Part shown: positions 13,907 through 32,701 of the stretch, piece after piece
Numbering within the stretch: position 1 is the first letter of the stretch
How the letters are laid out: each line of letters starts with the position of its first letter
From: Actinoplanes octamycinicus
GTDB taxonomy: Bacteria > Actinomycetota > Actinomycetes > Mycobacteriales > Micromonosporaceae
Assembly: GCF_014205225.1 (NCBI RefSeq)
Contig: NZ_JACHNB010000001.1
Coordinates: 4,383,501-4,447,500, forward strand
Length of the DNA stretch: 64,000 nucleotides
Direction of reading: 5' to 3'
Position numbers and translations under genes: made by a program
Notes under the pieces: model-generated
Told to the model about the DNA's origin: nothing
Seen by the model: the letters and a program-made list of their open reading frames with translations, nothing else
Database searches by the model: none

Positions 13907-13973
13907 CGTCCACGATCCGGCGCCGGTCAGGGATATTCCCGAGAATTCCTGCGAATGCAATTCCAGGGGCGGG

Positions 13974-13981
13974 TAGGGGTT
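13974..13981 (+). promoter_or_regulatory. Cluster motif TAGGGGTT upstream of the glycosyltransferase
   Basis: TAGGGGTT ends 75 nt before the ATG of the glycosyltransferase. It matches sites upstream of several other units in the cluster and is probably an activator box. Confidence 0.6.
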
Positions 13982-14056
13982 TCTCCGCATCGGCACCGGG
14001 TCGAAAATGGCAGGCGAGTCGCTGTGGTGACAATGACGATTCTCCGGGAGTTCTGA

Positions 14057-15265
14057 ATGCGAATCTTCTGTACTATCACCGGCACCCAGGGACACGCGAA
14101 CGAGGTGCTGCCGATCGCCCGGGCCCTGCTGCTGGCCGGGCACGAGGTCGCGGTCGCGGTCCCGGAGGCGCTGACCGGGGTGTTCGACGGTACGCCGGTG
14201 CGACTGCATCCGGTGATGCCGAGCATCCCCGAGGTGATGCAGTCCATCTTCTCGATGCGTTTCGAACGGGAGCCGGGCGCCCCCGAGCCCGTGCTCGACA
14301 ATCGGATGGAAATGATCCTCTGGGGCGGCGGGCCGCACATCACCGGCACCTTCCACACCGTGCTGCCGCTGGCCCGGGAGTTCCGCCCCGACCTGATCCT
14401 GCGCGACGGTGGCGAGGTGACCGGCGTGCTGATCGCCGAGGCGCTCGGTGTCCCGCATGTGTCCTGCCCCTCCGGGCCGACCAACGTGATCGACCCGCAG
14501 GGCCTGCTCCCGCTGCTCAACAAGCGGCGGGCCGAGGTCGGGCTGCCGGCTCAGGACGACCCTTGGTCGATGTACCGGCACGGCCGGGTCGACTGTATGC
14601 CGGGCGCGTACTCTTTCGCTCGCTACCCGGTGCCGGAGGCGTTCGCCTACCGGCAGCCCGCCGCGCTCAACGAGGCTGAGGGCCTCCCGCCCGAGCTGGC
14701 CGCCCTGTCCGGTGACCGGCCGCTGGTGGTCGCCTCGGTAGGCAGCTCGCTGCCCACCGTGATGGCCATGCAGCAGATGGGCATTGACCCGCCGGAGGGG
14801 ATGATGCACCCGTCGGAGACGTTGCGGGCCATCGTCGGCGGCCTGTCCGCCCTGGACTGCCACGCCGTGGTCAGCACGGCCGGGTTCCCGGTCGAGGGCG
14901 TCGAGATCGGTCCGCACGTGCACGTCATGGACTGGATCCCGCAGATGCTGTTGCTGCAGTGCGCCCAGCTGTTCATCACCCACGCCGGATACAACAGCGT
15001 GCGGGAGTCGGTACGCCAAGGCGTACCGATGGTCTCCCTGCCGCAGTTCGGCGACATGCACCACAACGCGGTCCGGATCGAGGAACGCGACCTCGGCCGC
15101 ACGGTCACCGAGGTCACCGCGGAAGGCGTGGCCACGGCCTGCAAGCAGGTGCTCAACGACGACCGGATCACCGCCGGCATACGAGCCGCACACCGGCAGA
15201 TGCTCGGGTTGCCCGGTGTCGAGGCGGTCGTCGGACTGCTGGAACGGACCGTCGCCGCGCACTGA
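14057..15265 (+). CDS. Macrolide-type glycosyltransferase (GT1 / MGT family)
   Basis: The 402-residue length is normal for the family. The N-terminus MRIFCTITGTQGHANEVLP matches the Rossmann start of antibiotic and sterol-type GT1 enzymes. The nucleotide-sugar signature lies near residues 300-340: WIPQMLLLQ, then THAGYNSVRES and PMVSLPQFGDM, where most homologues have HGGxGS. It should move a sugar from an NDP-sugar onto the macrolactone, in the cytoplasm. The start is supported by GGGAG ten bases upstream. No deoxysugar genes occur in the window, so the sugar is either a common one or made elsewhere. It may instead inactivate the product by glycosylation, as some macrolide transferases do for self-resistance. 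Confidence 0.92.
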   Translation: MRIFCTITGTQGHANEVLPIARALLLAGHEVAVAVPEALTGVFDGTPVRLHPVMPSIPEVMQSIFSMRFEREPGAPEPVLDNRMEMILWGGGPHITGTFHTVLPLAREFRPDLILRDGGEVTGVLIAEALGVPHVSCPSGPTNVIDPQGLLPLLNKRRAEVGLPAQDDPWSMYRHGRVDCMPGAYSFARYPVPEAFAYRQPAALNEAEGLPPELAALSGDRPLVVASVGSSLPTVMAMQQMGIDPPEGMMHPSETLRAIVGGLSALDCHAVVSTAGFPVEGVEIGPHVHVMDWIPQMLLLQCAQLFITHAGYNSVRESVRQGVPMVSLPQFGDMHHNAVRIEERDLGRTVTEVTAEGVATACKQVLNDDRITAGIRAAHRQMLGLPGVEAVVGLLERTVAAH

Positions 15266-15331
15266 CCCCGGGGCTGGCTGGGCCCCGGCCGGTTCGTGTC
15301 TTTCCCCCGTGAGGCACGTTCCGGAAGCAGA

Positions 15332-15376
15332 GGTACGGAGGGCCGCCGCGGTTGCCCGCCGGTGGCCCTCCGTACC
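15332..15376. terminator. Bidirectional terminator between glycosyltransferase and LAL gene
   Basis: A 13-bp perfect inverted repeat (15332-15344 with 15364-15376) lies between two convergent genes, 66 bp after the glycosyltransferase stop. Confidence 0.75.
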
Positions 15377-15396
15377 CGAGTCGCAACCGTCGCCGA

Positions 15397-18216
15397 TCAG
15401 GCGGCCGCCCACGAGTCCACGGCCGACAGCTTCGCCGGAAGATCGCGGCGCCGCCGGACGTCGAGCTTGCGATAGATCCGGGTCAGGTGCTGCTCGACCG
15501 TACTGACGGTGACGAACAACTGGGCTGCGATCTCGCGGTTGGTATGGCCCTCGGCGGCCAGCGTGGCCACCCGAGCCTCTGCCTCGGTCAGCGGCTCGGA
15601 CTCCGGCACCTGCCGAATCGTGGCCCGCGCCGACGGGGCCGCCTCGGTCTCCGAGTACCCGGGAATCAGCTGCTCGCACACCGGTTCCGCGCCGCACGAC
15701 TTGGCCAGGTGCCAGGCCTTGCGGACCAGCATGCGCGCCTGGTTGACGTCCCCGGCGGCCTGCTGGCAGCGGCCCAGTTCACCGAGAGCGATCGCCAGCT
15801 GCAGCCGGCTGCCGTGGTCCTCGAGGATCTTGACCGCCTCACGCAGCATCGGCAGCCGCCGCGGCCCGGTCTCGACGGCGCCGAGAATCCGCAGCAGCAC
15901 TGCGCGGCGCCGGCGGGAGCCGGGACCGGAGCGGTTCAGCTGCGATTCGGCCAACTCCTTCGCCCGCTTCGGCTCGCCGAGCGCCAGCCAGGCCTCGGCG
16001 GCGTCGATGTGCCACGACACGACCTGAGGGTTGTCGGTCCCGAAGGCCTCCATCGACTTGCCGATCGCGAGGAAGGTCTCCAACGCGGCGTGCGGCCGGC
16101 CGGTCGCCAGGTACCACCGCCCACGGGCCTGCCGGTAGTGCAGCCCGGCGATGGTGTGTGGCATCGCCGGCGGCACCGCCTGGTCCAGCAGCCGACCGGC
16201 CTCCTCGTAGCGGCCCATCATGGTGCAGGCCTGCACGAGGATCGCCAGCGGATGGGCGATGGCGATGCCCCAACTCTGTACCGACATCTGGTCCAGCGCG
16301 GCCCGGGCGTGGCTCTCCGCCCCACCGAGGTCGCCCTGGCGCAGCGCGATCTCGGCCCGCACCACGGTCAGCAGGGCCCGCCAGGACGGGGTGTCGCGGC
16401 TCGAGCACTCGTCGAGCAGCCGCTCGCACCAGGACAGCGCCAGGTCCAGCCGGTCGGCGTAGATCAGCGCCCAGAGCACCGACACCAGCGGCTGAACGGC
16501 ACTGTCGGTGAGGTGGTAGCGCTGCAGGATCCGAATCGCCTCGTCGACCGGCGCTTCCGCCTCCGAGTCACCGGTGACTGCCGCGGTGTAGGTCGCCGCC
16601 GCGTGCAGGTAGGGCAGAGCTTCGGACGCGCCGGCGACCGCCCCGGCCGGCTCCGGCTCCGGTTCGGTCTCCGGCGCCGTGCCCGCCGCGTCCGGGCCGT
16701 GCAAGCGCGGTCGCAGATGCGGGATGAAGGCGGTCAGCCAGTTGCGCGCCGCCGCGATCGCGGTCAGGTCCGACGGCTCTGACGTCTGCGGGGTCTCGGT
16801 CAGCTCCTCGACGATGCCGGCTGCGCGGTCCACCTGGCCGTCCCAGGCCAGGTAGGCCACCGACATCGGGAGATTCCGGTACACCGCGCGGTCCGGCGCC
16901 GCCTCGGCGGTGAGCCGGGCCAGGTAACCGCCGGCCGCGGCCGGCGCGGTACGCCACGTCGCCAGGATCAGCTGGCTGTTGATCTCGGCACGTTCCCGTT
17001 CGTCGGCACACACCCGGTAGGCCAGCTCCAGGCACCGGCGGGCGAAGGTGTTGTCGTCGTTGACCATGGCGTACTCGGCCGCTTTGCGCAGCACCGGCAG
17101 GGTCCACGCGTCGGCCTCGCCGCCGCGCGCCACGACCTGCTGGGCCACCTCGGTCGCCGAAGCGCCCGAGTCGAACAGCAGCCGGGCCGTTCGGTCGCGC
17201 AGGCGCACGACGACGTCGGCCGGGGCGTGGTCGAGGATGGCGGTCCGTGCCGCCGGGTCCCTGAACTGCCCGTCGCTGAGCAACCCGCTGTGCCCGAGGT
17301 CCTCGATCGCCTGCAGCACGGTGCGTGCCGGCAGGTCCACCAGCTGGCTGATCGTCTGGGGCGTGGCGGCCGGACCGAACGCCGCGATGGCCCGGGCCAC
17401 GGTCAGCATCTCCGAGTCGCCGCGGTGCAGGCAGTCGAGCACACCCTGGATGTACGTCTCGGCACGCACCAGCGGCACGCCGCTGGCCGCGGTGCTCTCC
17501 GCGGTGGCACGCGCGTCGTCGATCAGGGCCTGGACCAGCATCGGGTTGCCGCCGGTGACCGTGTGCACCTCGTCGGCGAGCCGGTTCGCGGCGTGCGGGC
17601 TCAGCTGTCCGCTGATCAGATGGCTGGTTCCGGAGCGGGACAGCAGTCGTAACCGCAGCCTGGTGTGGTGTGGCTGGCGCTGCAACTCGGAGTAGAAATC
17701 GGTCTGGTCGCGTGGTGTTCGATTCGACGTGGTGAGCAGCAGCAGCACCTTGGCCCGCCGGGTCCGCCGGGCCAGATGCAGCAGGAACTGCTTGGACGCG
17801 GGATCCGCGCGGTGCACGTCGTCGACCGCGATGACCACCGGTTGCCGCTCCGCCAGGCGCAGCAGCGTGGTGGACAGACAGACCATGAAGCCGACCCCGG
17901 CGCTGGCCGGATCACCGGCCTCCTCCATGAGGCGCAGGATCATCGCGGTGGCCTCGGGAGCGATCGGGAGGCTCGCGATGATTTTTCGTACGATGCCGAA
18001 GCGCACCCCGTGCTCGGCTCGTGAGGCGACGGCGTCCACTACCACGGCGCCGCCGGCGACCGCCCGGTCCGAGGCGGTCACGAGCAGTTCGGACTTGCCG
18101 CTGGCCACCGCTCCACTGATGGTGGCGATCCGGCCGTTTCCCTCTGCTGTGCTGTTCAGCAGGTCTTCCAGTACTGCCAAGTGGTTTTCACGCTCGATCA
18201 GCGTCGTTGTCGACAC
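15397..18216 (-). CDS. LAL-family LuxR transcriptional regulator (first copy)
   Basis: A large ATP-binding LuxR regulator of about 939 residues. The N-terminal NTPase has Walker A GAVASGKSE and Walker B-like PVVIAVDDVHRAD; a long alpha-helical TPR-like middle follows. The C-terminal LuxR helix-turn-helix reads LTEAEARVATLAAEGHTNREIA, then FVTVSTVEQHLTRIYRKL. I chose the GTG at 18216, with GGGGA about six bases upstream, over an in-frame TTG at 18258. It lies 70 bp after the type II thioesterase on the same strand and probably shares its transcript. LAL proteins are usually cluster activators, so this is a prime candidate to bind the TAGGGGT boxes. A paralogue lies at 27934-30702. Confidence 0.93.
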   Translation of the reverse strand: MSTTTLIERENHLAVLEDLLNSTAEGNGRIATISGAVASGKSELLVTASDRAVAGGAVVVDAVASRAEHGVRFGIVRKIIASLPIAPEATAMILRLMEEAGDPASAGVGFMVCLSTTLLRLAERQPVVIAVDDVHRADPASKQFLLHLARRTRRAKVLLLLTTSNRTPRDQTDFYSELQRQPHHTRLRLRLLSRSGTSHLISGQLSPHAANRLADEVHTVTGGNPMLVQALIDDARATAESTAASGVPLVRAETYIQGVLDCLHRGDSEMLTVARAIAAFGPAATPQTISQLVDLPARTVLQAIEDLGHSGLLSDGQFRDPAARTAILDHAPADVVVRLRDRTARLLFDSGASATEVAQQVVARGGEADAWTLPVLRKAAEYAMVNDDNTFARRCLELAYRVCADERERAEINSQLILATWRTAPAAAGGYLARLTAEAAPDRAVYRNLPMSVAYLAWDGQVDRAAGIVEELTETPQTSEPSDLTAIAAARNWLTAFIPHLRPRLHGPDAAGTAPETEPEPEPAGAVAGASEALPYLHAAATYTAAVTGDSEAEAPVDEAIRILQRYHLTDSAVQPLVSVLWALIYADRLDLALSWCERLLDECSSRDTPSWRALLTVVRAEIALRQGDLGGAESHARAALDQMSVQSWGIAIAHPLAILVQACTMMGRYEEAGRLLDQAVPPAMPHTIAGLHYRQARGRWYLATGRPHAALETFLAIGKSMEAFGTDNPQVVSWHIDAAEAWLALGEPKRAKELAESQLNRSGPGSRRRRAVLLRILGAVETGPRRLPMLREAVKILEDHGSRLQLAIALGELGRCQQAAGDVNQARMLVRKAWHLAKSCGAEPVCEQLIPGYSETEAAPSARATIRQVPESEPLTEAEARVATLAAEGHTNREIAAQLFVTVSTVEQHLTRIYRKLDVRRRRDLPAKLSAVDSWAAA

Positions 18217-18286
18217 GGCTTGTCCCCGTTCGTTGCCATACTCGACTTCCTGTCCCAAGCTCAGGTGTCAGCGGCGCGGATGCGCA

Positions 18287-19069
18287 TCACCTCGCCATCC
18301 GGGGCGGAGCGCCGGCCGCGTCGGCGCCGGTCAGCCGATCCGCCACCAGGTCGTTGATCGCGTTCTGATGGTTCGCCAGGAAGAAGTGCCCGCCGGCGAA
18401 GGTGTGCAGGGTGAACCGGCCGGTGGTGTGCGCCTGCCAAGCGGTGACTTCGGCCAGGCTCGACCGCGGGTCGGCGTCGCCGGTCAGCGCGGTGATCGGG
18501 GCGTCGACGACGGCGCCGGGCTCGGCCCGGTACCGCTCGATCGCGGTGTAGTCGCTGCGGATCGCGGGCATCGCCATGCGCAGCAGCTCCTCGTCGGCGA
18601 GAATGCGGGCGTCGGTGCCGCTGAGCTCGCGCATCTCGGCGACGATGCCATGGTCGTCCCGCCGGTGCACGTTCTCGTCGCGCGTGGTCGACGGGGCCCG
18701 CCGGCCGGAGACGAACACCTCGGACACCGGCACGCCGTGTTTCTCGAGTCGCCGGGTCACCTCGAAGGCGAGCACGGCGCCCATGCTGTGGCCGAACAGC
18801 GCCACCGGGCCCCGCAGGCGGGGCCGCACTGCGGCGGTGATCTCGTCGGCCAGCTCACCGATGTCCTCGATCCGCGGGTCGGCGCGTCGGTCTTGTCGTC
18901 CGGGGTACTGCACCGCCAGCACGGCGATCCGCGGCGCCAGGGCGCGCGACACCGGGAAGTAGAACGACGCCGACCCGCCCGCGTGGGGCAGGCAGACCAG
19001 CTGCACGGCGTCCGGGTCGGCGGGGTGGTAGGTGCGAATCCAGATGTTGTCTGCTGACGTCTCACTCAC
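18287..19069 (-). CDS. Type II thioesterase
   Basis: A 260-residue alpha/beta hydrolase of the RifR/GrsT type that clears misprimed or stalled acyl groups from PKS carrier proteins. Visible motifs are LVCLPHAGGSASFYFP near residue 25, the nucleophile elbow LFGHSMGAVLAFE near 95, LTGDADP with the catalytic Asp, and AGGHFFL with the catalytic His. The start is GTG at 19069. A TAGGGGTG box lies 76 nt upstream and a TATCGT -10-like element 22 nt beyond that box. The LAL gene follows, so the regulator and editing enzyme are probably co-expressed. Confidence 0.95.
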   Translation of the reverse strand: MSETSADNIWIRTYHPADPDAVQLVCLPHAGGSASFYFPVSRALAPRIAVLAVQYPGRQDRRADPRIEDIGELADEITAAVRPRLRGPVALFGHSMGAVLAFEVTRRLEKHGVPVSEVFVSGRRAPSTTRDENVHRRDDHGIVAEMRELSGTDARILADEELLRMAMPAIRSDYTAIERYRAEPGAVVDAPITALTGDADPRSSLAEVTAWQAHTTGRFTLHTFAGGHFFLANHQNAINDLVADRLTGADAAGAPPRMAR

Positions 19070-19117
19070 GGCGGTTCCGTTCTGCTGCGTCTGGCCAAAT
19101 CGGACTGAACCGGGCCC

Positions 19118-19174
19118 ACGATAGGCAGTAGGGGTTCGGGCGGAGCACCCCTATTTCGCCGCTAGGTAGGGGTT
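19118..19174 (-). promoter_or_regulatory. Promoter region of thioesterase-LAL operon with three cluster motifs
   Basis: Read on the minus strand, TAGGGGTG (19153-19146) is followed after 22 nt by TATCGT (19123-19118), giving a predicted start near 19111 and a leader of about 41 nt. Two more copies, TAGGGGTT at 19129-19136 and 19167-19174, face the opposite way. Confidence 0.6.
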
Positions 19175-19287
19175 CCGGTGTCGGCGATCCGACGCGGTTG
19201 TCCGGAGTCCGGAAGTAGGTGAACACGCAAATTCCAATAGGTGTGCCAATGGCTGCCCGGATGAACCTCGGGTAATTGGTTGCATCG

Positions 19288-19315
19288 AAGATAATCTATC
19301 GTAAATGTTTGACAA
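19288..19315 (-). promoter_or_regulatory. Candidate sigma-70-type promoter, distal
   Basis: On the minus strand TTGTCA (19315-19310) and TATCTT (19293-19288) are 16 nt apart in a locally AT-rich patch. It could be a second promoter for the thioesterase-LAL operon, about 210 nt further upstream. The rest of 19175-19495 shows no gene. Confidence 0.4.
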
Positions 19316-19495
19316 TGATCCCCGGCGGCTCGCTGTGCGCGCTGTGCGTCCTGAGTCGGTCCGCGCGGTAGCCGGAGCGCCGATGCGCTGGCACATCGTC
19401 GTCTGACCCCCGTCCTGGTCCGCCGGGCCGGATCCATTCGAGGTTCCGGATCCCCCTAATGAGCCGGGCGCGGGAAGCGTCCGTGCTTCGGGATC

Positions 19496-19503
19496 TAGGG
19501 GCG
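19496..19503 (+). promoter_or_regulatory. Degenerate cluster motif TAGGGGCG
   Basis: TAGGGGCG ends 72 nt before the ATG at 19576. This matches the spacing of the exact copies ahead of the glycosyltransferase and ABC genes, although the last two bases differ. Confidence 0.4.
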
Positions 19504-19575
19504 GTTAAGGGTGTCGTGTCGAAAAACTCGTCAATAGCGTTGCGTGACGACGAGTCTTTCGTATTGGAGGGCGTC

Positions 19576-19821
19576 ATGAGTGATACGACCAGCAGGCTGC
19601 CGCAATCCGCCCGCAACGTTGCGGGCGAGGCCTTTCTCCAGGCCCGGCTCGAGGGCGGCCCGGCGGACTTCCCCGCCGATCTGCGCGACCAGGCGGTGCC
19701 TCGCGACCAGGACCGGGTCAAGGTTCCGTACTGCGGCGGGTACGAGCACTTCGAGCGGAGCGCCGGCGACGTCGAACCCGTCGCGTTCCGCTGGGTCGGG
19801 CGCACCTGGGTCGCCGAGTAG
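19576..19821 (+). CDS. Small DUF5988-like protein
   Basis: The ATG at 19576 follows GGAGG at 19566-19570; the frame opens earlier but no upstream start has an RBS. The 81-residue product has the pattern of small proteins found in actinomycete biosynthetic clusters and labelled DUF5988: an LEGGPADFP segment, DRVKVPY, GGYEHFER and a C-terminal FRWVGRTWVAE. There is no signal peptide or membrane helix. Its biochemical role is not known to me. Its place beside the thioesterase-LAL unit, with a degenerate TAGGGGCG box at the usual distance, suggests it belongs to the cluster. Confidence 0.8.
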   Translation: MSDTTSRLPQSARNVAGEAFLQARLEGGPADFPADLRDQAVPRDQDRVKVPYCGGYEHFERSAGDVEPVAFRWVGRTWVAE

Positions 19822-19931
19822 TCAGAGGTGTCGACCGGTTTGCCCGGGGAGATCCCGGGCCGGCCGGTACCGTGCGCAGAGCGCGTGACGGAAGTGGCGT
19901 TGTTGGGATGGGGTTTCGGTAGGTGGGGGCT

Positions 19932-20357
19932 ATGGCGTCGGTGGGCAAGGTCATTCGGTACGACGAGGTCCGTGGGTACGGATTCATCGCGCCGGCGGAG
20001 GGTGGCGAGGACGTCTTCGTCCATGCCAACGACTTCGGAGACCAGCGTGGTCTGGTGCATTCCGGGATGCGGGTGGAATACGAGGTGGAGGTCGGTGATC
20101 GCGGTCTGAAGGTGGCCTCGTTGCGGGTCTTGGAGCCGGCCACGCCGGCTCGGTCCGAGCGGGACGCGGCCACGGTCCGGGCCGGCGTGCCCGGCGACGA
20201 CGAGGGCATGTGCGACGTGCTGTCCGGCCGCGAGCTGATGGTCGAGGTGACCGAGGCGCTGATCGGCAAGGTCCCGGCGCTGACCGGGGCGCAGATCGCC
20301 GCGATCCGGCAGACCGTGGTCGACCTGGCCCGGTCGCACGGCTGGGTGGAGAGCTGA
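19932..20357 (+). CDS. Cold-shock-domain protein with C-terminal extension
   Basis: I chose the ATG at 19932 over an in-frame GTG at 19923 because AGGTGGGGG sits directly upstream. Residues 1-65 form a cold-shock domain with RNP-1 GYGFIAP and RNP-2 EDVFVHANDF, which binds single-stranded RNA or DNA. A further 75 residues contain a helical segment (LTGAQIAAIRQTVVDLARSHGWVES), so the protein is about twice the usual CspA length of 65-70. It may be a host stress protein captured between cluster genes, as nothing visible links it to polyketide synthesis. Confidence 0.9.
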   Translation: MASVGKVIRYDEVRGYGFIAPAEGGEDVFVHANDFGDQRGLVHSGMRVEYEVEVGDRGLKVASLRVLEPATPARSERDAATVRAGVPGDDEGMCDVLSGRELMVEVTEALIGKVPALTGAQIAAIRQTVVDLARSHGWVES

Positions 20358-20376
20358 CCCGGTAACACGAGCGGAG

Positions 20377-20414
20377 GGCTCGTCGTCGCGCCGTGACCGG
20401 TGCGACGGCGAGCC
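20377..20414. terminator. Terminator hairpin between convergent genes
   Basis: A 13-bp stem, 20377-20389 with 20402-20414, containing one G-U pair, lies between the cold-shock gene and the convergent membrane-protein gene. Confidence 0.7.
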
Positions 20415-20428
20415 TGTTCGCTGTGCGA

Positions 20429-20902
20429 TCACCGGCGCTCCGGCGCGAACCGGACGCCGAGCGCGAGGCCCTGGCGGGTGACGGCCAGAGCCTCGCCGAT
20501 GAAGCTGATCCCGATGGAGAGCTGGATCGGGCGCGCCTCGGGTCGCATCCCGAGCTTGTCGGCGAGCAGCGCGTAGGCGAACATCACCAGCAACGAGCCG
20601 ATGATCGCCACGAAGGTCCGGCCGCGGTAGCGCTGCCAGAGGAAACCGCGCTTCTCGTACACCACGACGAACGAGCCGCGCAGGTAACCGAGGGCGAGAC
20701 CGAGGATGATGCCGCCGGCCAGCCAGGCGTAGTCGCCGGGACGGAGGCCGTCGGTCTTCCAGAGGGTGTAGCTGCCGATGGCGGTCAGGATGACCGGCGC
20801 CGCCCACAGGTCGCGGCCGTTGAGTGGCTCGCCGAGCAGCCGTTTGACCACAATGACGACCAGGACCACCGCGATGATCGACGCCAGGACCCAGCTGTTC
20901 AC
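20429..20902 (-). CDS. Multi-spanning membrane protein, unknown function
   Basis: I chose the GTG at 20902 because GGGAGGT lies six to ten bases upstream; an in-frame ATG at 20926 would overlap the operator-like repeats. The product of about 157 residues has some five hydrophobic segments (SWVLASIIAVVLVVIVV, WAAPVILTAIGSYTLW, WLAGGIILGLALGYL, TFVAIIGSLLVMFAYALL and a weaker one near the end). It resembles small CcdC/DUF1453-like membrane proteins in size and layout, as does the product at 13358. It is divergent from the TetR gene, 68 bp away, with paired palindromes between them, so it is the likely target of that repressor. Function unknown; an efflux or sensing role is possible. Confidence 0.8.
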   Translation of the reverse strand: MNSWVLASIIAVVLVVIVVKRLLGEPLNGRDLWAAPVILTAIGSYTLWKTDGLRPGDYAWLAGGIILGLALGYLRGSFVVVYEKRGFLWQRYRGRTFVAIIGSLLVMFAYALLADKLGMRPEARPIQLSIGISFIGEALAVTRQGLALGVRFAPERR

Positions 20903-20919
20903 TGCCGTACCTCCCGTAT

Positions 20920-20961
20920 TTGGCATTGCCGTGCCAACTTATCATGGCATAGCTGTGCTAT
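20920..20961. promoter_or_regulatory. Two operator-like palindromes and a -10 box between divergent genes
   Basis: TTGGCA-N6-TGCCAA (20920-20937) is perfect and ATGGCA-N6-TGCTAT (20944-20961) has one mismatch; both share a 6-6-6 layout and sit 24 bp apart. TATAAA at 20959-20964 lies 6 nt before the TetR ATG, which would make that mRNA leaderless. Confidence 0.6.
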
Positions 20962-20970
20962 AAAAGCCGC

Positions 20971-23936: not shown

Positions 23937-23944
23937 AACCCCTA
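23937..23944 (-). promoter_or_regulatory. Cluster motif TAGGGGTT upstream of the ligase-amidohydrolase operon
   Basis: Within GGTAGGGGTT on the minus strand, ending 124 nt before the ligase ATG. A GACGCT stretch lies 22 nt downstream, a weak -10 match. The rest of 23813-24024 contains no gene. Confidence 0.5.
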
Positions 23945-24024
23945 CCGTCCCTTGCCCGGACCCGTGACCGGCGCCGCATCGGCGGAGTCGCGACTGCGTG
24001 TGCCGGGTCGGCTACTGTGACCGG

Positions 24025-24078
24025 ATGTTTGGTTTGCCGCCGTCCCGAATGTCCGCACTTTTCCGGCCGGCGCGGTGA
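24025..24078 (+). CDS. Possible 17-codon leader ORF ahead of the sensor kinase
   Basis: ATG at 24025 opens 17 codons whose TGA (24076-24078) overlaps the GTG start of the kinase gene. TACTGT at 24013-24018 sits 6 nt upstream, so the ORF may be read from a leaderless transcript. It could couple translation to the kinase. There is no homology evidence. Confidence 0.3.
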   Translation: MFGLPPSRMSALFRPAR

Positions 24079-25262: not shown

Positions 25263-25274
25263 GTCCGGCGCCGG

Positions 25275-25961
25275 CTATCGCCCGAGGTGGTGGTCGTTGG
25301 CGTAGCGCGCCGCCTCGACCCGGTTACGCACACCGGTCTTGGCGTACGCGTTGTTGAGGTGTGTCTTGACCGTCGCCTCGCTGATGAACAACTGCCCGGC
25401 GATCTCGGCGTTGCTGAGACTGCGCGCCACCATGCTCAGTACCTGGGCCTCGCGCCTGGTCAGGCCGTCCGGCAGCGGGCCGTCGGCCGGTGCCTCGTCC
25501 CGAGCGACCGGCGAGTGTTGCCGGGCGGTCAGCGCGTCGATCACGGTCCGTGACACGTTGGCGTCGAGCGTCCAGTTGCCGGCCGTCGCCGAGCGGATCG
25601 CCGCCAGGATCTCCTGCCGCCCGGAGTTCTTGGTCAGGTAGCCGCGGGCCCCGGCTCGCAGCGCGTCGGCGACCGACGCGTCGTCGGCGAAGGTGGACAG
25701 CACGACCACCGCGACACCAGGGCAGGTCTCGGTGATCACTGAGGTGGCCGCGACCCCGTCCATCACCGGCATCCGCAAGTCCATCAGCATCACGTCCGGC
25801 GCGGCCTCACGGGCCAGCCGCACCGCCTGCTCGCCGTCGGTCGCCTCGCCGACCACCTCGACACCGTCGAGCAGTTCGGCCAGCGCCACCAATCCTTCCC
25901 GGATGGTCTGCTGATCGTCGACAATGGCCAGCCGGACGACCGGCGTCTGGTGCTCCTGCAC
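25275..25961 (-). CDS. NarL/LuxR-family response regulator
   Basis: 228 residues. The receiver domain has the acidic pair DD at 15-16, phospho-acceptor Asp61 (VMLMDLRMPVMDG), the Thr/Ser switch in VLSTFAD and Lys in YLTKNSG. The C-terminal HTH reads LTRREAQVLSMVARSLSNAEIA, then ISEATVKTHLNNAYAKTGV. It pairs by type with the kinase ending 12 bp away on the other strand. It is divergent from the ABC exporter at 26141, so the exporter promoter is a possible target. Confidence 0.95.
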   Translation of the reverse strand: MQEHQTPVVRLAIVDDQQTIREGLVALAELLDGVEVVGEATDGEQAVRLAREAAPDVMLMDLRMPVMDGVAATSVITETCPGVAVVVLSTFADDASVADALRAGARGYLTKNSGRQEILAAIRSATAGNWTLDANVSRTVIDALTARQHSPVARDEAPADGPLPDGLTRREAQVLSMVARSLSNAEIAGQLFISEATVKTHLNNAYAKTGVRNRVEAARYANDHHLGR

Positions 25962-26037
25962 GGATGTCCCTCGGGGGTTCGAGAAGCGGGTACCGGCTGT
26001 CAGGGTAGCGGTTACGCCTGATCCGTCCCGATCTCCG

Positions 26038-26093
26038 GCCGCCCCTCACTGGGGCGGCTAGGGGTTGTTGGCCGATCCCGGCGCTTCCTACGG
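26038..26093 (+). promoter_or_regulatory. Inverted repeat, cluster motif and -10 box before the ABC exporter
   Basis: GCCGCCCC-N5-GGGGCGGC (26038-26058) directly abuts TAGGGGTT (26059-26066), which is followed after 21-22 nt by TACGGT (26088-26093). The motif ends 74 nt before the ATG at 26141. The palindrome may be a separate operator, for instance for the divergent response regulator. Confidence 0.6.
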
Positions 26094-26140
26094 TTTGACC
26101 CACCGGCTCGCCGGCAGCCGCTTTCAGACAGGGTGCATTG

Positions 26141-27103
26141 ATGATCAAAGTGCGGGGCCTGGCGAAGACGTTCAAGACCCGGGGCCGGACGGTCCCGGCG
26201 GTCCAAGGCGTCGACATCGACGTCGCCGAGGGCGAGATGGTGGGTTTCCTCGGCCCCAACGGCGCGGGCAAGAGCACCACTCTGCGGATGCTCGCGACAC
26301 TGCTGCGGCCGTCCGCGGGGGAAGCCGTGGTGGCCGGCTGCGATCTGCTCTCCGACCCCTCCGGGGTACGCCGCCGGATCGGCTACGTCGGGCAGGGCAA
26401 CGGCGCCGGCGCCGGTCAGCGGGTCGCCGAGGAGTTGATCACTCAAGCCCGGCTCTACGGCATGCCGGCCGCAGCCGCCCGCGAACGGGTCGGCGAGCTG
26501 CTCGAACGCTTCGACCTGGCGGCGCTGGGCGAGCGTACGGCCGGAACGCTCTCCGGTGGCCAGCGGCGCCGCCTCGACATCGTGATGGGCGTGCTGCACC
26601 AGCCCCGGCTGATCTTCCTCGACGAGCCGTCCACGGCGCTCGACCCGCAGAGTCGAAACAACCTCTGGCAGCACATCCGGTCGTTGCGCGACGAGCACAA
26701 CTGCACCGTCTTCCTCACCACGCACTATCTCGACGAGGTGGACGCGCTGTGCGAGCGGATCCTGATCATTGACGCCGGCCGGATCATCGCCGAGGGCAGC
26801 CCGGACGTCCTGAAAGCGGAGATCTCCGGCGACCAAGTCACGCTGGGCGTGAGCGATCCGGCGGAAGCCGCGGCGACGGTCACCCGCGAGCCGGAGGTGC
26901 AGGACCTGACCACGCACGGCACGCACCTGAGCTTCCGGGTGCCGGGCGGGGACACCGTGGTGCCCGTGCTGATGCGTGCCCTGGACGCGGCCGGCGTCAC
27001 CGTCACCTCGGTGCAGATCCAGCGGCCGACCCTCGACGACGTCTTTCTCACCCTCACCGGCCGCAGTCTGCGCGAAGCCGGCCCGACTCCCGACCCGGCG
27101 TAG
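26141..27103 (+). CDS. ABC transporter ATP-binding protein (DrrA type)
   Basis: The ATG at 26141 is preferred over the TTG immediately before it. The 320-residue ATPase has Walker A GPNGAGKSTT (about residue 40), the signature LSGGQRRR (about 138), Walker B LIFLDEPSTALD and the switch His in TTHYLDE. The C-terminal part (DQVTLGVSDPAEAAATVTREPE to IQRPTLDDVFLTLTGR) is typical of daunorubicin-resistance ATPases. With the permease 35 bp downstream it forms an exporter, probably for the polyketide, giving self-resistance. Confidence 0.95.
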   Translation: MIKVRGLAKTFKTRGRTVPAVQGVDIDVAEGEMVGFLGPNGAGKSTTLRMLATLLRPSAGEAVVAGCDLLSDPSGVRRRIGYVGQGNGAGAGQRVAEELITQARLYGMPAAAARERVGELLERFDLAALGERTAGTLSGGQRRRLDIVMGVLHQPRLIFLDEPSTALDPQSRNNLWQHIRSLRDEHNCTVFLTTHYLDEVDALCERILIIDAGRIIAEGSPDVLKAEISGDQVTLGVSDPAEAAATVTREPEVQDLTTHGTHLSFRVPGGDTVVPVLMRALDAAGVTVTSVQIQRPTLDDVFLTLTGRSLREAGPTPDPA

Positions 27104-27138
27104 GCCGGGTCCCGACCCCTGGCCCAAGAGGGATGACC

Positions 27139-27882
27139 ATGCAACTAGTGCGGCAGACCGGCCTGATCCTGCGGCGCACGGCGCGTACCTGGTATCGCAG
27201 CCCCGTCGCGATCTTCGTTGGGTTCTCCGGTCCACTCATCTATCTCGTTCTGTTCGGGCCGCTGCTGGAGGGCAGCCTCGGCGGTGACCCGTGGCAGTGG
27301 TTCGTCCCGGGCATGCTGATGCAACTCACCGTCTTCGGTGCGGCCTACGCCGGTTTCTCCCTGACGCCCGAACTGCGCAACGGCGTGATGGAGCGACTGT
27401 GGGTCGCCCCGGTCAGCCGCATGGCTCTCCTGCTCGGCCGGGTGCTCAGCGACGTGGCCCAGCTGACGCTGCAGGGTGTGCTTCTCCTGGCGGTGGCGGT
27501 GGCGCTGGGCTTCCGCACCTCGCTGCCAGCGATGATCTGCGCGTTGGCGCTGGCCGCTCTGCTCGGCGCCGGGCTGAGCGCGGCTTCGTACGCGATGGCC
27601 CTGCGGATCCGGGAGGAGAATCGCTTCGCGCCGCTGCTGAGCATGCTGCTGCTGCCGTTGATGCTCCTCTCCGGGGTGCTGCTGCCGATGGAGTCGGCGC
27701 CGGGCTGGCTGCACGCGCTGTCGCTGGCCAACCCGCTGACGTATGTCGTTGACGCGTTGCGGGCCATCACCGCGCAGCAATACGCCACCGACGACACGCT
27801 GACCGGCCTGGCGGTCACCGCCGGGCTCGGGGTGCTCTGCACGTTCTGGGGCCTGCGGGCGATGGCCCGCGAGCAGACCTGA
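27139..27882 (+). CDS. ABC-2 type transporter permease (DrrB type)
   Basis: An in-frame ATG lies at 27133, but AAGAGGG at 27126-27132 fits the ATG at 27139 better. About six membrane helices are visible (SPVAIFVGFSGPLIYLVLFG, WFVPGMLMQLTVFGAAYAG, LQGVLLLAVAVALGF, ICALALAALLGAGLSAA, LLSMLLLPLMLLSGVLLP, LTGLAVTAGLGVLCTFWG). The ABC-2 pattern LSGVLLPMESAPGWL precedes the last helix. It forms the channel partner of the ATPase just upstream. Confidence 0.93.
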   Translation: MQLVRQTGLILRRTARTWYRSPVAIFVGFSGPLIYLVLFGPLLEGSLGGDPWQWFVPGMLMQLTVFGAAYAGFSLTPELRNGVMERLWVAPVSRMALLLGRVLSDVAQLTLQGVLLLAVAVALGFRTSLPAMICALALAALLGAGLSAASYAMALRIREENRFAPLLSMLLLPLMLLSGVLLPMESAPGWLHALSLANPLTYVVDALRAITAQQYATDDTLTGLAVTAGLGVLCTFWGLRAMAREQT

Positions 27883-27898
27883 TCGGTGTCGGCTCGGC

Positions 27899-27926
27899 CG
27901 GCCCCGTTCGTCACCGGACGGGGCCG
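27899..27926. terminator. Terminator between convergent exporter and second LAL gene
   Basis: A 9-bp stem, 27899-27907 with 27918-27926, lies in the 51-bp gap between two convergent genes. Confidence 0.65.
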
Positions 27927-27933
27927 CTCCATG

Positions 27934-30702
27934 TCAGCCGCGGGCGACCAGGCGGTCGAAGGCGGCCGGCAAGGCGTTGCGGCCGCTGAGGTTCAGTTTT
28001 CGATACACCCTGGTCAGATGCTGTTCTACGGTGCTCATCGTGATGTAGAGCTTGGTAGCGATCTCCCGGTTGGTGTGCCCGGCCGCGGCGAGGGTGGCGA
28101 CTCGGTGTTCCGCGTAGCTGAGGGCCGGATGCCCGTCGAGCTCGGTCACCGGGCCCTCGTGGGTGGCCCCGTCCGAGCCGGAGGACTCCGCCACCAGTCG
28201 TTCGAGCAAGGGGATCACCCGCGGCTCCTCGCCCGGGCGGTCCGCCTGCCGGGACGTGGTCCGTATCCGGCGATGCTCCCGGATCGACCGGTACGCCTCC
28301 CCGAGATCGGACAGCGTGCACGACAGTTCGGCCCGGTCCGTATCCGGAGCCGGTCGTGCCGGGGCCGGGCGATAGCGGCTGTCGGAGACCGGGCTGTGAT
28401 GCCTCAGCATGGTGCCGAACCCGCGAGCCGGCTGTGCGCCGGTCCGGCGGCTCTGTTGCGGCCGGTTCAGCCGTGCGTTGGCCCGGCTCGCGGCGGCCCG
28501 CCAGGGAACCAGTGTGGCCAGGTCGATGCCCCAAGCCCGCATCAGCTCACCGCAGCGGAGAAAATCGGCGAGCGCGGCCTGCGGGCGGTCGGCGGCCAGG
28601 TGGAACTCACCTCGGGCGTACAGGTAGTGCAGGCCGTATCGCGTCCCGAGCATCTCCTGGGGAAGCGGGCGGCCGGCGTACTCGGCAGCCGCGGTCAGGT
28701 CACCGCTGATGGTGGCGGCGAGCAGCAGCACCGAGATCGGACCGGCCACGGCGACTCCCCAAGCCGGCTCCGGCAGGTGCCGCAGGGCGAGCCGCGCTTG
28801 GGTCACCGCCGTGGTGAGGTCGCCGTGTCGCAGCGCTGTCTCGGCATGCAGCCCGGCAAGCCGCGCCCGCCACGCCGCGCTGCCGGTGCGCGCGGCCCGG
28901 TCCAGCATGACCTCACCGGCCGCCGCGGCCCGGCCCAGCTCATCTGAATAGATCAGGGCGAGTAGAGCGGATTCGACGTCCTCGAAGGCAGCCGACGTCG
29001 GCTCCGCGGCCTGCAGCAGGCGCTCGGCGGCGATCGGGTCTTGACTGTCGGCCTGCTGGGTGAGCACCCGGTGCAGGATCGCCGGGCCGGTCCGCTGATA
29101 CGCCCGCGGGCCGGGCTCGGGATAGCCCAGGTGGTCGACCAGTGCGGGGTAGGAGACCGCGATCAGCAGGCGCAGGTCCTGGAGATCCGCCGGGTGGAGG
29201 TCGCCGGTGCGTTCGCCGACAAGCGTGACTGCCTCCACCGCGTCCGCGTAGTGGCTCTGCCGCAGCAGGTAACGCAGCATGGCAGCGGTGTACGCGCCGC
29301 CGGAGCGGATCTCTTGCAGCGCGCCGCGCACGTTGGCCGTGCACCTGGCCATGCTGAATGCGGCGAGCTGCCACTCGACCCCGGTCAACCGAACCAGGAT
29401 GCCGGCCAGTCGCCGGTCGTCGGCGCCCTGTGCCCGGGCCTGTTCCAGGCAGCGGTGCGCGAAGTCGGCGTCGTCGGCGATCGCCTCGTCGGCGGCCTGG
29501 CACAGGACATCGACCATCGGATCCGGCCCGGATCCGGCAGCCAGCAGGTGCCGGGCGACCCGCCGGGCGCTCGCGCCCCGAGTGTGCAGCAGCTGCGCAG
29601 CCCGGCGGTTGAGCCCGGCGGTTTCGCTGGTCGCCACATCGTCCAGGACGGCGTCGCGGACGGCGGGGGACACCGGCTTGTCGTGCCGGGTGAGCCCGGC
29701 CCGGTCGAGCTCGGCGAGCAGACGCACCACCCGGTCCGGGGCGAGACCGATCAGATGCGAGACCAACTCCGTCGAGCTGGACTCGCCGAGCACGGCTGCG
29801 GCCCGGGCAGCCCGGGTGACCGTCTCGTCGTAGCGGCCCAGGCAGGTCAGCACAGCGTGCTGGAAACGATCGCCGTACCCCAGCGTGGCCCGGTGGGCCA
29901 CGTCAGGGCTGTCGGCCGGCGCCGCCTCGCAGTCGTCGAGCAGCGCCTGCAGCAGGGTCGGGTTGCCGCCGCTGACGCTGTGGCACCGAGCGCTCAGGGC
30001 GTCATCGGGCGTGCCCGTCCGTTGCGCCACGACCCGGCCCACGCCGGCGCGGGACAGCAGCTCGAGCTGGATGCGTTGGTCGGCGGCTCCTCGCAGCCGG
30101 CTGCCGAGCGAGCCGTCCTGGGCGGTCGGCAGATCGCTGACTACCAGGAGGATGCGGCGTCCGTCGAGTCGCCGGGCGAGCGCCACCAGACACTCCAGCG
30201 ACTCGGTGTCGGCCTGGCCGATGTCGTCGACGCAGATCAGCAGCGGGGCTTGGACGGCCAGTTCGAGCAGGATCGTGCTGAGGTCCTCGGACGACGGCCG
30301 GCTCTCGACGGGCGGTCCGGCATCACAGTCCGTATCGGTCAGGTACGGAACAGCGAACCGTGGAGTGGCCGGCCCGGCGAAGGCCTCGGTCATCAGCTGG
30401 CCGAGCACGCCCAGCGGGAAATCGGCCTCGCTGCTTGAGCTCGCGGCGAACAGCACGGTCGCGCCGGAATCGGCGGCGTCGGCGCACAGGGCGGCCAGCA
30501 GGGCGGTCCGGCCACTACCGGCCGGACCGGTGACCGCGACCAGGCTGCCACGTCCCCGGCCGGCCGCGGCGAGCCGATCGCGGAGCGCCCGGCCCGGGTC
30601 CTCTCGTTCGACCAGTACATGCAAGTGTGACAACTGATCCCCCGTACCATGAACTTCTCTCGGCCTTGCCTTTTGGGCGCGACCATTGCCAAATGTTTCC
30701 AT
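27934..30702 (-). CDS. LAL-family LuxR transcriptional regulator (second copy)
   Basis: The start is uncertain: ATG at 30702 is shown; the frame is open to 30828, and a TTG at 30633 has GGGGGA four bases upstream. From 30702 it has about 922 residues: an AAA-like NTPase, a TPR-like middle and a C-terminal LuxR HTH (LSYAEHRVATLAAAGHTNREIA, then ITMSTVEQHLTRVYRKL). The Walker A motif reads GPAGSGRTA, with Arg (codon 30508-30510) in place of the essential Lys; Walker B LICVDDIGQAD is present. ATP use may therefore be altered. Its HTH resembles that of the first LAL, so they may share target boxes or compete for them. The stretch near residues 780-840 diverges from the first copy but stays in frame. 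Confidence 0.9.
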   Translation of the reverse strand: METFGNGRAQKARPREVHGTGDQLSHLHVLVEREDPGRALRDRLAAAGRGRGSLVAVTGPAGSGRTALLAALCADAADSGATVLFAASSSSEADFPLGVLGQLMTEAFAGPATPRFAVPYLTDTDCDAGPPVESRPSSEDLSTILLELAVQAPLLICVDDIGQADTESLECLVALARRLDGRRILLVVSDLPTAQDGSLGSRLRGAADQRIQLELLSRAGVGRVVAQRTGTPDDALSARCHSVSGGNPTLLQALLDDCEAAPADSPDVAHRATLGYGDRFQHAVLTCLGRYDETVTRAARAAAVLGESSSTELVSHLIGLAPDRVVRLLAELDRAGLTRHDKPVSPAVRDAVLDDVATSETAGLNRRAAQLLHTRGASARRVARHLLAAGSGPDPMVDVLCQAADEAIADDADFAHRCLEQARAQGADDRRLAGILVRLTGVEWQLAAFSMARCTANVRGALQEIRSGGAYTAAMLRYLLRQSHYADAVEAVTLVGERTGDLHPADLQDLRLLIAVSYPALVDHLGYPEPGPRAYQRTGPAILHRVLTQQADSQDPIAAERLLQAAEPTSAAFEDVESALLALIYSDELGRAAAAGEVMLDRAARTGSAAWRARLAGLHAETALRHGDLTTAVTQARLALRHLPEPAWGVAVAGPISVLLLAATISGDLTAAAEYAGRPLPQEMLGTRYGLHYLYARGEFHLAADRPQAALADFLRCGELMRAWGIDLATLVPWRAAASRANARLNRPQQSRRTGAQPARGFGTMLRHHSPVSDSRYRPAPARPAPDTDRAELSCTLSDLGEAYRSIREHRRIRTTSRQADRPGEEPRVIPLLERLVAESSGSDGATHEGPVTELDGHPALSYAEHRVATLAAAGHTNREIATKLYITMSTVEQHLTRVYRKLNLSGRNALPAAFDRLVARG

Positions 30703-30971
30703 CCCGTTAAGCGGGACCTGGGCTTCGCCTTCCTTGCGGTGTGAGGAATGGCGGAACGACCAGGAACCTAGCACGCGAATAGTTCGTTCGGGTGATCCAG
30801 AACATTTGACAGAGTGATGCCACGGCAAGATCGAGATTGCGATTCGACTGCACAGAGTGGGTCTGGGGCGCGGTCGCTGCTCGCATCGCTATTCACTGTG
30901 ATGAATAGCACTCCTGTGTCCGGCCTCCTCGCGGCGCCGCTGAGCAGGCGCTCTGTCGGCGTTCCGGCCGG

Positions 30972-30979
30972 TAGGGGTT
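30972..30979 (+). promoter_or_regulatory. Cluster motif TAGGGGTT in the gap before the second LAL gene
   Basis: An exact TAGGGGTT lies in the 30829-31097 gap, facing away from the LAL gene. No convincing plus-strand gene follows; a 12-codon ORF (31040-31078) is the only candidate. It could act on the LAL gene in reverse. The rest of the gap shows no gene. Confidence 0.45.
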
Positions 30980-31097
30980 GCCTCGCGAAGCGAGTTGTGA
31001 TTAGCGGCCGCGCGGAGCCTGCGGATGCTCGGCGAGAGCATGAATTTGTTCCGCAAGACAATCATCGTGGGCGATTGATAATGGCACGATGCAAATT

Positions 31098-31757
31098 TCA
31101 GGCGTGGACCGTCACCGCGGTCAGCATGAGATCTCCGCGGACCAGCCAGCGCCCCGTGAAACCGGTCAGAGCGGGCCCGCCGTCGAGCCGATCTCCCGGG
31201 ACGCGCAGACGCGCGGAGAACTCCGCGGCGAACGGGTCGATGCTCAGCTCCGCCTCGTCGAATCCGAGCATCCGCCCGGTCAATGGGAACCATGCCTTGA
31301 ACACGGACTCCTTGGCGCTGAACAGTAGCCGGTCCCAGCGGATCGCTGGATACCGCAGGGCGAGCCCGGCCAGCCGGCGCCGTTCGGCGGGCAGCGACAC
31401 CGCCTCCAGGATCCCCTCGGGCAGCGGCGCGTGCGGCTCGGCGTCGATACCCAGCGAGGTCAGATCGGTGCGGGCGGCCACGGCGGCACCCCGGTACCCG
31501 GCACAGTGCGTGATGCTGCCGATCACCCCGGACGGCCACACCGGATCGCGCCCCGGCCCGGCCGGGATCGGCACGGGCGCGAAGCCCAACTGGGTCAACG
31601 CCTCACGGGCACAACGCCGGGCGGTCACGAACTCGCGCCGCCGAGACTCCACGGACCGGCCGACCGACGCCTCCTCGCCGGGGAACACCGGTTCGCCGGT
31701 CCGATCGGAGAACGCTTCGGCGACGCACACATCGGCCGGAAGGATCTCGCCGATCAT
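31098..31757 (-). CDS. 4'-phosphopantetheinyl transferase (Sfp/EntD type)
   Basis: The ATG at 31757 overlaps the stop of the metallophosphoesterase (ATGA), so they are translationally coupled; readings that extend upstream lie within that gene. The 219-residue product shows the family motifs in order: GSITHCAGYRGAAVA (78-93), LGIDAEPHAPLPEG (102-115) with the Mg-binding Asp and Glu, and FSAKESVFKAW (146-156). It transfers the phosphopantetheine arm of CoA to the carrier-protein Ser (such as those at 1856, 6638 and 12202) and would be needed to activate the PKS. Adjacency to a metallophosphoesterase is common for this subfamily in actinomycetes. Confidence 0.95.
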   Translation of the reverse strand: MIGEILPADVCVAEAFSDRTGEPVFPGEEASVGRSVESRRREFVTARRCAREALTQLGFAPVPIPAGPGRDPVWPSGVIGSITHCAGYRGAAVAARTDLTSLGIDAEPHAPLPEGILEAVSLPAERRRLAGLALRYPAIRWDRLLFSAKESVFKAWFPLTGRMLGFDEAELSIDPFAAEFSARLRVPGDRLDGGPALTGFTGRWLVRGDLMLTAVTVHA

Positions 31758-32602
31758 GACGCGTACTCCGGCGCCGCCAGGACGGTGCGCAGCACGGTGG
31801 GGTGCTCGCCCCGGCGGGGCAGCCACTCCCGCGGATAGCCCAGCGAGACCTCCTCGAACCGAACACCGTCGTAGTGGGTGGTCCGCGGGATGTGCAGATG
31901 GCCGTAGACGGCGACCTCGGCACGGAACCGCACGTGCCAGTCCGCGGTCCGTTCGGTGCCGCACCACTGCGCGAACTCGGGATGGCGCAGCACCGCGGTG
32001 GGCTGCCGGACCAGCGGCCAGTGGCTGACCAGGACGGTCCGCATCCCCGGATCGCAGGCTTGGAGCCGGCGTTCGGTCGCGGCGAGACGGGCCCGGCACC
32101 ACGCCTCGCGGCTGGGGTACGGATCCGGGTGCAGCATCATCTCGTCGCTGCAGACCACCCCGGTCTGGTACGCGTACCGCAGCGACTCGGCCTTGGTCCG
32201 CGTTCCCGGCGCCCGGAAGGTGTAGTCGTAGAGCAGGAAGAGCGGTGCGATCACCAGCGGACCATCCGGGCCTGGCCAGACGGCATAGTCGTCCTCGGGC
32301 GTCAGCACACCCCATTCCTGCACGGCGGCCACCAACGCGCGATACCGGCCTTCGCCCCGCAACGTCACCGGATCCTGCGGGTGCGTCCAAAGCTCGTGGT
32401 TGCCCGGAGTCCAGATCACCCGGGCGAAGCGCCGGCTGAGCATCCGCAGCACATCCACCACGTCGTCGAACAGCTCGCCGACGTCACCGGCGACGAGCAG
32501 CCAGTCCTGATCGGACCGCGGCTGCAGCGCGTCGGCGAGCCGGCGGTTCTGCGGGTACGTCACGTGCAGGTCGCTGACGGCGAACAGCGTTCCGGCGCTC
32601 AT
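31754..32602 (-). CDS. Metallophosphoesterase (calcineurin-like)
   Basis: The ATG at 32602 is chosen over a GTG at 32611 because TACGGT lies 7 nt upstream and would give a leaderless message starting at this ATG; no Shine-Dalgarno is visible. The 282 residues carry the five metal-binding blocks: SDLHVTYP (about 11), AGDVGE (about 39), PGNHELW (about 67), LVSHWPL (about 176) and VYGHLHIPRTTHY (about 233). The substrate is unknown. The ATGA coupling to the phosphopantetheinyl transferase hints at a CoA- or carrier-protein-related phosphate ester, but this is inference. Confidence 0.93.
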   Translation of the reverse strand: MSAGTLFAVSDLHVTYPQNRRLADALQPRSDQDWLLVAGDVGELFDDVVDVLRMLSRRFARVIWTPGNHELWTHPQDPVTLRGEGRYRALVAAVQEWGVLTPEDDYAVWPGPDGPLVIAPLFLLYDYTFRAPGTRTKAESLRYAYQTGVVCSDEMMLHPDPYPSREAWCRARLAATERRLQACDPGMRTVLVSHWPLVRQPTAVLRHPEFAQWCGTERTADWHVRFRAEVAVYGHLHIPRTTHYDGVRFEEVSLGYPREWLPRRGEHPTVLRTVLAAPEYAS

Positions 32603-32604
32603 GG

Positions 32605-32701
32605 CGGACACCGTAGGCAGCCACCGGCACCGACGGCCATCACCCCTACCCGGGTCAGGGGTTCACACCGGGTGAGATGTGGCTCGGCCCGCCGTTATGT
32701 T
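32605..32701. promoter_or_regulatory. Divergent promoters with an inverted pair of cluster motifs
   Basis: TAGGGGTG on the minus strand (32648-32641) is followed after about 25 nt by TACGGT, which ends 7 nt before the metallophosphoesterase ATG. CAGGGGTT on the plus strand (32656-32663) precedes TATGTT (32696-32701), which ends 6 nt before the mutA ATG. Both messages look leaderless. Confidence 0.55.

Follow-up and report, generated by a model that had tools for sequence, protein, structure and literature searches.

A TAGGGGT(T/G) box 22 nt upstream of -10-like hexamers as the predicted operator of a LAL-type activator in a polyketide cluster of Actinoplanes octamycinicus

Positions 4,383,501–4,447,500 of the single-contig 10.28 Mb genome of Actinoplanes octamycinicus (64 kb, here called the window) contain the right-hand part of a polyketide gene cluster in which an 8-bp element, TAGGGGT(T/G), recurs upstream of genes. 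We analysed the window together with its flanking DNA, giving negative coordinates to positions upstream of the window; genes were called by codon usage, starts and operons are the calls of the present analysis, and Pfam was used to name 28 genes around the cluster and two more to its right. The cluster reaches 67 kb upstream of the window, and its span was taken as -66879 to 37748 (104.6 kb; 104,628 bp). Six large genes, together encoding 25,596 aa, occupy -63922 to 13230: Pfam finds modular type I polyketide synthase (PKS) domains in two complete proteins and in an N-terminal piece of a third, active-site patterns likewise indicate PKS for the other three, and the sixth gene ends with a thioesterase, again by Pfam. 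Left of these, on the minus strand, lie genes for an amine-oxidase-type enzyme, read as an arginine monooxygenase, an AMP ligase, a carboxyltransferase, a biotin carboxylase and arginase-family proteins; a VinK-like acyltransferase gene on the plus strand separates these supply genes from the PKS genes. By inference, the cluster makes a polyketide of the clethramycin/mediomycin kind with a guanidino- or aminobutyryl starter.

To the right of the PKS genes lie a glycosyltransferase gene (UDPGT/EryCIII-like by Pfam; 14057–15265, plus strand), two minus-strand genes encoding the LAL-type regulator LAL1 (15397–18216) and a type II thioesterase (TEII; 18287–19069), which are separated by a 70-bp gap and probably form one operon, and a DUF5988 gene (19576–19821, plus). 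These are followed by a gene for a LuxR-type response regulator of the NarL type (25275–25961, minus), ABC ATPase and membrane genes (26141–27103 and 27148–27882, plus), a second LAL gene, LAL2 (27934–30624, minus), genes for a 4'-phosphopantetheinyl transferase (PPTase; 31098–31757, minus) and a metallophosphoesterase (31754–32611, minus), and mutA, mutB and meaB (32708–37748, plus).

The initial annotation of this DNA had listed eight exact copies of the box and two variants in the window, and all ten are present. The TEII–LAL1 promoter carries three: a box (TAGGGGTG, 19146–19153, minus) followed after 22 nt by the -10-like hexamer TATCGT (19118–19123, minus), an inverted partner within the spacer (19129–19136, plus) and a third, inverted box upstream (19167–19174, plus). 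The ABC transporter genes are preceded by TAGGGGTT (26059–26066, plus), with TACGGT 22 nt further on (26089–26094, plus). Before the DUF5988 gene, the tandem variants TAGGGGCG (19496) and TAAGGGTG (19506), 10 bp apart (19496–19513, plus), stand 31 and 21 nt from TAGCGT (19535–19540, plus). TAGGGGTT also occurs upstream of the glycosyltransferase gene (13974–13981, plus), with CAGGGGCG 10 bp upstream of it, and facing the AMP-ligase and carbon-nitrogen hydrolase genes (23937–23944, minus). Between the PPTase–metallophosphoesterase and mutA–mutB–meaB genes, the minus-strand box TAGGGGTG (32641–32648) is followed by TACGGT 25 nt on (32610–32615), and the plus-strand variant CAGGGGTT (32656–32663) by TATGTT 32 nt on, directly before the ATG at 32708. 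By eye, these hexamers fall 7 nt before the ATG at 32602 and 6 nt before that at 32708, so leaderless messages would result. The remaining exact copy (30972–30979, plus) is followed after 22 nt by TAGCGG.

Upstream of the window we found five further exact copies, at -65115 (minus), -65051 (plus), -64016 (plus), -27993 (plus) and -27974 (minus), which precede the supply genes, the acyltransferase gene, PKS gene 1 and, as an inverted pair (-27993/-27974), PKS gene 4. The annotation had seen no copy beyond 33 kb; a ninth exact copy in the window lies at 44298 (minus), inside an RHS-like reading (NPYTYV on the plus strand, by eye), and is probably a coding coincidence. The DNA right of the cluster (37749–49213) has sparse gene calls, an IS4/5-type transposase and a GmrSD-N plus RAMA protein; it may be a hotspot for insertions or a defence island.

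A genome search with TAGGGGT[TG] and a position weight matrix had been proposed as a check, and it revealed enrichment in the cluster and a distribution that is not random. The window holds nine exact boxes as compared to 1.01 expected (sd 1.04), a count reached in none of 100 shuffles, and the cluster, a region chosen post hoc, holds 13 as compared to 1.30 (Poisson 1.5e-9). All 13 lie in non-coding DNA, which by our own gene calls makes up 3,203 of the 104,628 bp (3%) and in which a first-order model expects 0.12 boxes; TAGGGGT is the commonest 7-mer of this non-coding DNA (13 occurrences vs 12 for the runner-up). Genome-wide, the box occurs 128 times and its mirror-image control word 226 times. 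A matrix of 13 rows drawn from other genomes only (two rows being the same site twice) gave eight intergenic sites of the A. octamycinicus genome scores of 15.0 to 21.7, whereas control DNA from the same genome (240 kb) scored 13.87 at most; because its rows were selected for a 22-nt spacing, this ranking tests the A. octamycinicus genome and not the spacing.

The box had been described as lying at a fixed distance from start codons. Four copies do end 72–76 nt before a start (glycosyltransferase, 75; TEII, 76; DUF5988, 72, for the TAGGGGCG variant; ABC ATPase, 74), and the remaining sites are separated from the next gene by 29 to 187 nt or, for 19129 and 19167, by about 400–440 nt. The start-codon distance is thus a by-product, and the constant quantity is the 22 nt from box to -10. 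The hexamers that had been noted about 22 nt after the 19146 and 26059 boxes are both there, and TANSGT follows at exactly 22 nt at five of the 13 cluster sites: -65115 (TAGCGT), -64016 (TAACGT), -27993 (TACGGT), 19146 (TATCGT) and 26059 (TACGGT). By contrast, TANNNT occurs 20–24 nt after none of 85 other sites in the genome, with one instance at 17 nt and one at 32 nt (Fisher test for 22 nt, 1.9e-5); these 85 omit two TAGGGGTK sites (K, T or G) of a second LAL locus and 28 of the 128 genome copies. In the five promoters with exact spacing, no hexamer 15–19 nt from the -10 agrees with TTGACA at more than four of its six positions.

The same element recurs near related LAL genes in other genomes. 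Kitasatospora mediocidica has a related cluster (LAL1, 56% identity; arginine monooxygenase, 75%; ABC ATPase, 74%) with seven copies of TAGGGGTN in 140 kb, three of which have a -10 at 22 nt, before the arginine monooxygenase gene (TAGCGT), the ABC ATPase gene (TACATT) and one further gene (TAACCT), and one of which, before the LAL1 orthologue, has TAACAT at 23 nt. In this species (L033, L072–L078) a second LAL gene stands beside the LAL1 orthologue and adjoins metallophosphoesterase and PPTase genes, so the two-LAL arrangement recurs. Within the A. octamycinicus genome, a second LAL locus at 10.166 Mb (40% identity to LAL1) has boxes with TAGCGT at 22 and at 21 nt and two more copies without a -10; one of its two TAGGGGTK sites has the 22-nt spacing. 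Three of three clusters from another genus of the same family (G091, G112 and G057) carry one box 22 nt before TA[GC]CGT at the thioesterase–carboxyltransferase junction next to the LAL gene, where it overlaps or touches the end of the thioesterase gene; no such box was found within 1.5 kb of their orthologous monooxygenase genes. A genome of the same genus with a 43% identical LAL (L200) has TAGCAT at 21 nt and, after TAGGGGAT, TAGGGT at 22 nt.

At nine named Streptomyces loci, inspection by eye revealed TAGGGGTA in the thioesterase promoter 21–22 nt before TAGACA or TAGAAC in eight, with a second TAGGGG close upstream in seven of these eight; the ninth (L028) has AAGGGGTA. These hexamers do not fit TANNNT, and the automated -10 test therefore fails at the Streptomyces loci. 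In a de novo comparison of 1.5-kb flanking sequences from 37 loci with LAL1 homologues (29 plus 8, three of the 8 in the G091, G112 and G057 clusters), TAGGGGT was the top 7-mer preceding TANNNT by 21–23 nt, at five loci, two of them close relatives, ahead of the overlapping TTAGGGG (four loci) and of words found at three; among six spacings to a -10 between 8 and 49 nt after TAGGGGT at LAL1-homologue loci, five were 21 or 22. The closest named relative of LAL1 is that of Micromonospora parathelypteridis (72% identical), and its cluster was not recovered in a family search of 200 genomes at E 1e-180, which returned only the A. octamycinicus genome and one other; all 31 records from a plasmid collection were below 60% identity.

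Which protein binds the box? The initial annotation had named the two LAL proteins as the obvious candidates, a suggestion that gains from the recurrence of the box next to relatives of LAL1 in other genera, where no response regulator was found in the five box-bearing stretches fetched, and that stays a prediction from sequence. LAL1 (939 aa) combines an AAA_16 domain (E 8.5e-15) whose N-terminal Walker A motif, GAVASGKS at residue 35, is intact with MalT-type TPR repeats and a C-terminal GerE helix-turn-helix (HTH; residues 875–926, E 2.3e-12). LAL2 likewise has AAA_16 (E 1.8e-15) and a C-terminal GerE HTH (E 1.1e-10), and its P-loop reads GPAGSGRT instead of GxxxxGK[ST], with arginine for lysine; a canonical P-loop is found in the first 420 residues of 50 of 56 aligned LAL rows, which include some genes fetched twice. 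LAL2 may therefore not use ATP normally, and may be ATP-blind. The recognition helix STVEQHLTR-x-YRKL is shared by LAL1, LAL2, the LAL of the second locus and 47 of the 56 rows, the others differing by one to three residues, and with recognition helices almost identical the two cluster LALs cannot be told apart as binders. A search with LAL2 homologues returned mostly the loci of LAL1 and failed to separate the two: of 18 LAL2 loci scanned, four carry a box 21 or 22 nt from a -10, and two of these four had been included in the LAL1 count. Six 20-kb loci of the A. octamycinicus genome that encode LALs with other helices (120 kb) contain a single TAGGGGT, which has no -10 at 20–24 nt. What the box-bearing loci have in common is a LAL of this clade. 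The recurrence of the box beside related activator genes in other bacteria means that it most likely marks the activator's switch for the pathway; in our judgement TAGGGGT(T/G) is very probably the operator of a LAL-type (MalT-like) activator, with LAL1 the main predicted binder and LAL2 perhaps sharing its sites.

Several observations weigh against this assignment. Firstly, a canonical -10 at 22 nt is missing from eight of the 13 exact boxes: the -65051 box is joined by a degenerate second one, TGGGGGTG, which starts 10 bp further on and itself sits at exactly 22 nt; 32641 has its -10 at 25 nt; 19129, 19167 and -27974 are inverted partners; 30972 is followed by TAGCGG; and 13974 and 23937 have none. 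Secondly, no called gene lies in the direction of the 30972 box, both neighbours running the opposite way (it possibly drives an unannotated small transcript), and no box is oriented toward the LAL2, TetR, histidine kinase or response regulator genes, the LAL2 promoter having no TAGGGG in its direction. Thirdly, the direct repeat at a distance of 10 bp is weak (13 sites vs 81 controls, p=0.008 by rank test; five of six matches in 2/13 vs 1/81). Fourthly, a box 21–23 nt before TANNNT in the strict form is absent from 32 of the 37 flanks of distant LAL1 homologues, so that the code is either not universal or degenerate, and when the spacing is held to 22 nt TAGGGGT does no better than two other 7-mers, each at three loci. 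One control site, L095 (G000:C1:1812606), is alone among the controls in having TAGCGT, at 32 nt, as at -65051, and is a possible target outside the cluster. Finally, the Streptomyces coelicolor LAL protein SCO6993 is reported to act as a repressor at footprinted sites described as short palindromes without a consensus (PMC9628970), so not all LALs work as proposed here; it resembles LAL1 in being a LAL protein with DNA sites, which differ from TAGGGGT.

Binding by a regulator encoded outside the cluster is improbable. The 128 copies genome-wide would suit such a protein, and LAL binding is itself predicted, but none of the 85 other genome sites has the -10 at 20–24 nt, and box and spacing recur together near LAL loci in other genera. 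It is very unlikely that the box is bound by the cluster's own NarL-type response regulator with its histidine kinase. That regulator also has a LuxR-type HTH, and a response regulator gene stands beside the LAL1 relative in six of ten named loci, five of them with the kinase (some other loci being short); the recognition helix of the cluster's regulator, however, differs, and the stretches fetched from K. mediocidica, the second A. octamycinicus LAL locus, G091, G112 and G057 gave no match to regulator or kinase at E 1e-8 while carrying boxes at 21–23 nt. As a necessary binder the response regulator was rejected because it was not found in these five box-bearing stretches. Nor is the box at all likely to be the -35 element of an alternative sigma factor: its constant spacing to the -10 would fit, but 22 nt exceeds the usual 16–19 nt between -35 and -10, and tandem and inverted copies suit a bound regulator better. 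Chance or base composition has next to nothing to recommend it. The bare 8-mer with one mismatch allowed is indeed not enriched (44 found vs 43.4 expected in the window), which places the signal only in the exact word or in the word plus its -10, but the shuffle counts, non-coding confinement, -10 spacing, matrix ranking and conservation at orthologous Kitasatospora promoters all oppose it.

How might a LAL activator use the box? If the -10 hexamer occupies -12 to -7, a box whose end lies 22 nt upstream of it extends from about -42 to -35. By the MalT-type measure, in which the 3' end of the site lies about 34–35 nt from the transcription start site, the 22-nt spacing of five of the 13 sites puts that end near -35 of the inferred start. 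The box, centred at about -38, would then stand in for the -35 element. We propose that LAL1, probably after binding ATP and some ligand, binds the box as an oligomer and recruits RNA polymerase to promoters that lack a usable -35 (class II activation). Oligomers, as for MalT, might form where a promoter has another box at a distance of 10 bp or an inverted one within or next to the spacer, as at 19129/19146/19167 and -27993/-27974; this is the weak part of the proposal. Through the TEII–LAL1 promoter LAL1 would activate its own synthesis. Its predicted targets in the left part of the cluster are the arginine-monooxygenase supply genes, the discrete acyltransferase gene and PKS genes 1 and 4, and in the right part the glycosyltransferase, TEII–LAL1, DUF5988, second ligase/hydrolase, ABC exporter, PPTase and mutAB–meaB genes.

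The box is a new operator variant among LAL/MalT-type operators already known in kind. The MalT box of Escherichia coli and Klebsiella, GGGGA(T/G)GAGG, overlaps the -35 region (cited in PMC7567727). Activator class and a G-rich asymmetric site at the -35 region are shared with the present system; the core differs, being TAGGGGT and neither GGGGA(T/G)GAGG nor GGATGA, as do the targets, which are antibiotic-type genes instead of maltose genes. The MalT motif of Actinoplanes sp. SE50/110 is TCATCC-5-GGATGA, with its 3' end 34.4 ± 1.0 nt from the transcription start site (PMC7567727), the same promoter position as the box; no such palindrome occurs within two mismatches in the cluster. NemR of Streptomyces cyaneogriseus (Li et al. 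2019) is noted to have a conserved binding motif (cited in PMC12858678). It resembles LAL1 as a cluster LAL activator with such a motif and serves a different pathway. The NemR consensus is said to comprise two G-rich repeats spaced by roughly a helical turn.

The operator of PimM-type PAS-LuxR proteins, CTVGGGAWWTCCCBAG (PMC6448028), has a half-site, CTVGGG, resembling CTAGGGG and is likewise read by a LuxR-type HTH, but it is a 16-nt palindrome and belongs to a PAS-LuxR protein; as a candidate it was rejected, the cluster giving no match under three mismatches and the window three at three mismatches, as compared to 3.1 expected. One PimM-like palindrome, CAGGGATATTCCCGAG (13928–13943), lies 30 bp upstream of the glycosyltransferase box with three mismatches to the consensus, at chance level overall. 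The geldanamycin cluster pairs two LAL activators, GdmRI and GdmRII, both required (PMC6784220), and is thus like this one in having a LAL pair in one PKS cluster; the passages available give no LAL operator. The passages available from PMC10100954, PMC7105598, PMC7670052 and PMC3282765 likewise give none, and in the accessible parts of the open-access literature, to which the search was confined, we did not find TAGGGGT as a LAL operator.

LAL activators occur in many antibiotic clusters, and the accessible literature, as far as its available passages go, gives few of their DNA sites. The suggestion that the boxes make up a readable regulon for the pathway is strongly supported by sequence, with boxes before the mutAB and PPTase operons, and the regulon also takes in PKS genes outside the window. 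Should this clade use TAGGGGT 22 nt before a -10 as its operator, then mutAB precursor supply, PPTase, exporter and other members of the regulon would be predictable from sequence, cluster borders could be drawn and the outcome of LAL overexpression could be judged beforehand. To date, TAGGGGT placed 21–22 nt before a -10 has been found here and in Kitasatospora, in Streptomyces, where the -10 differs slightly, and in genomes belonging to at least two more families, and we lean slightly toward regarding it as a general operator code of the actinomycete LAL clade with the STVEQHLTR-x-YRKL helix. Were the code to hold generally, sequence would directly reveal which genes many orphan LAL activators target.

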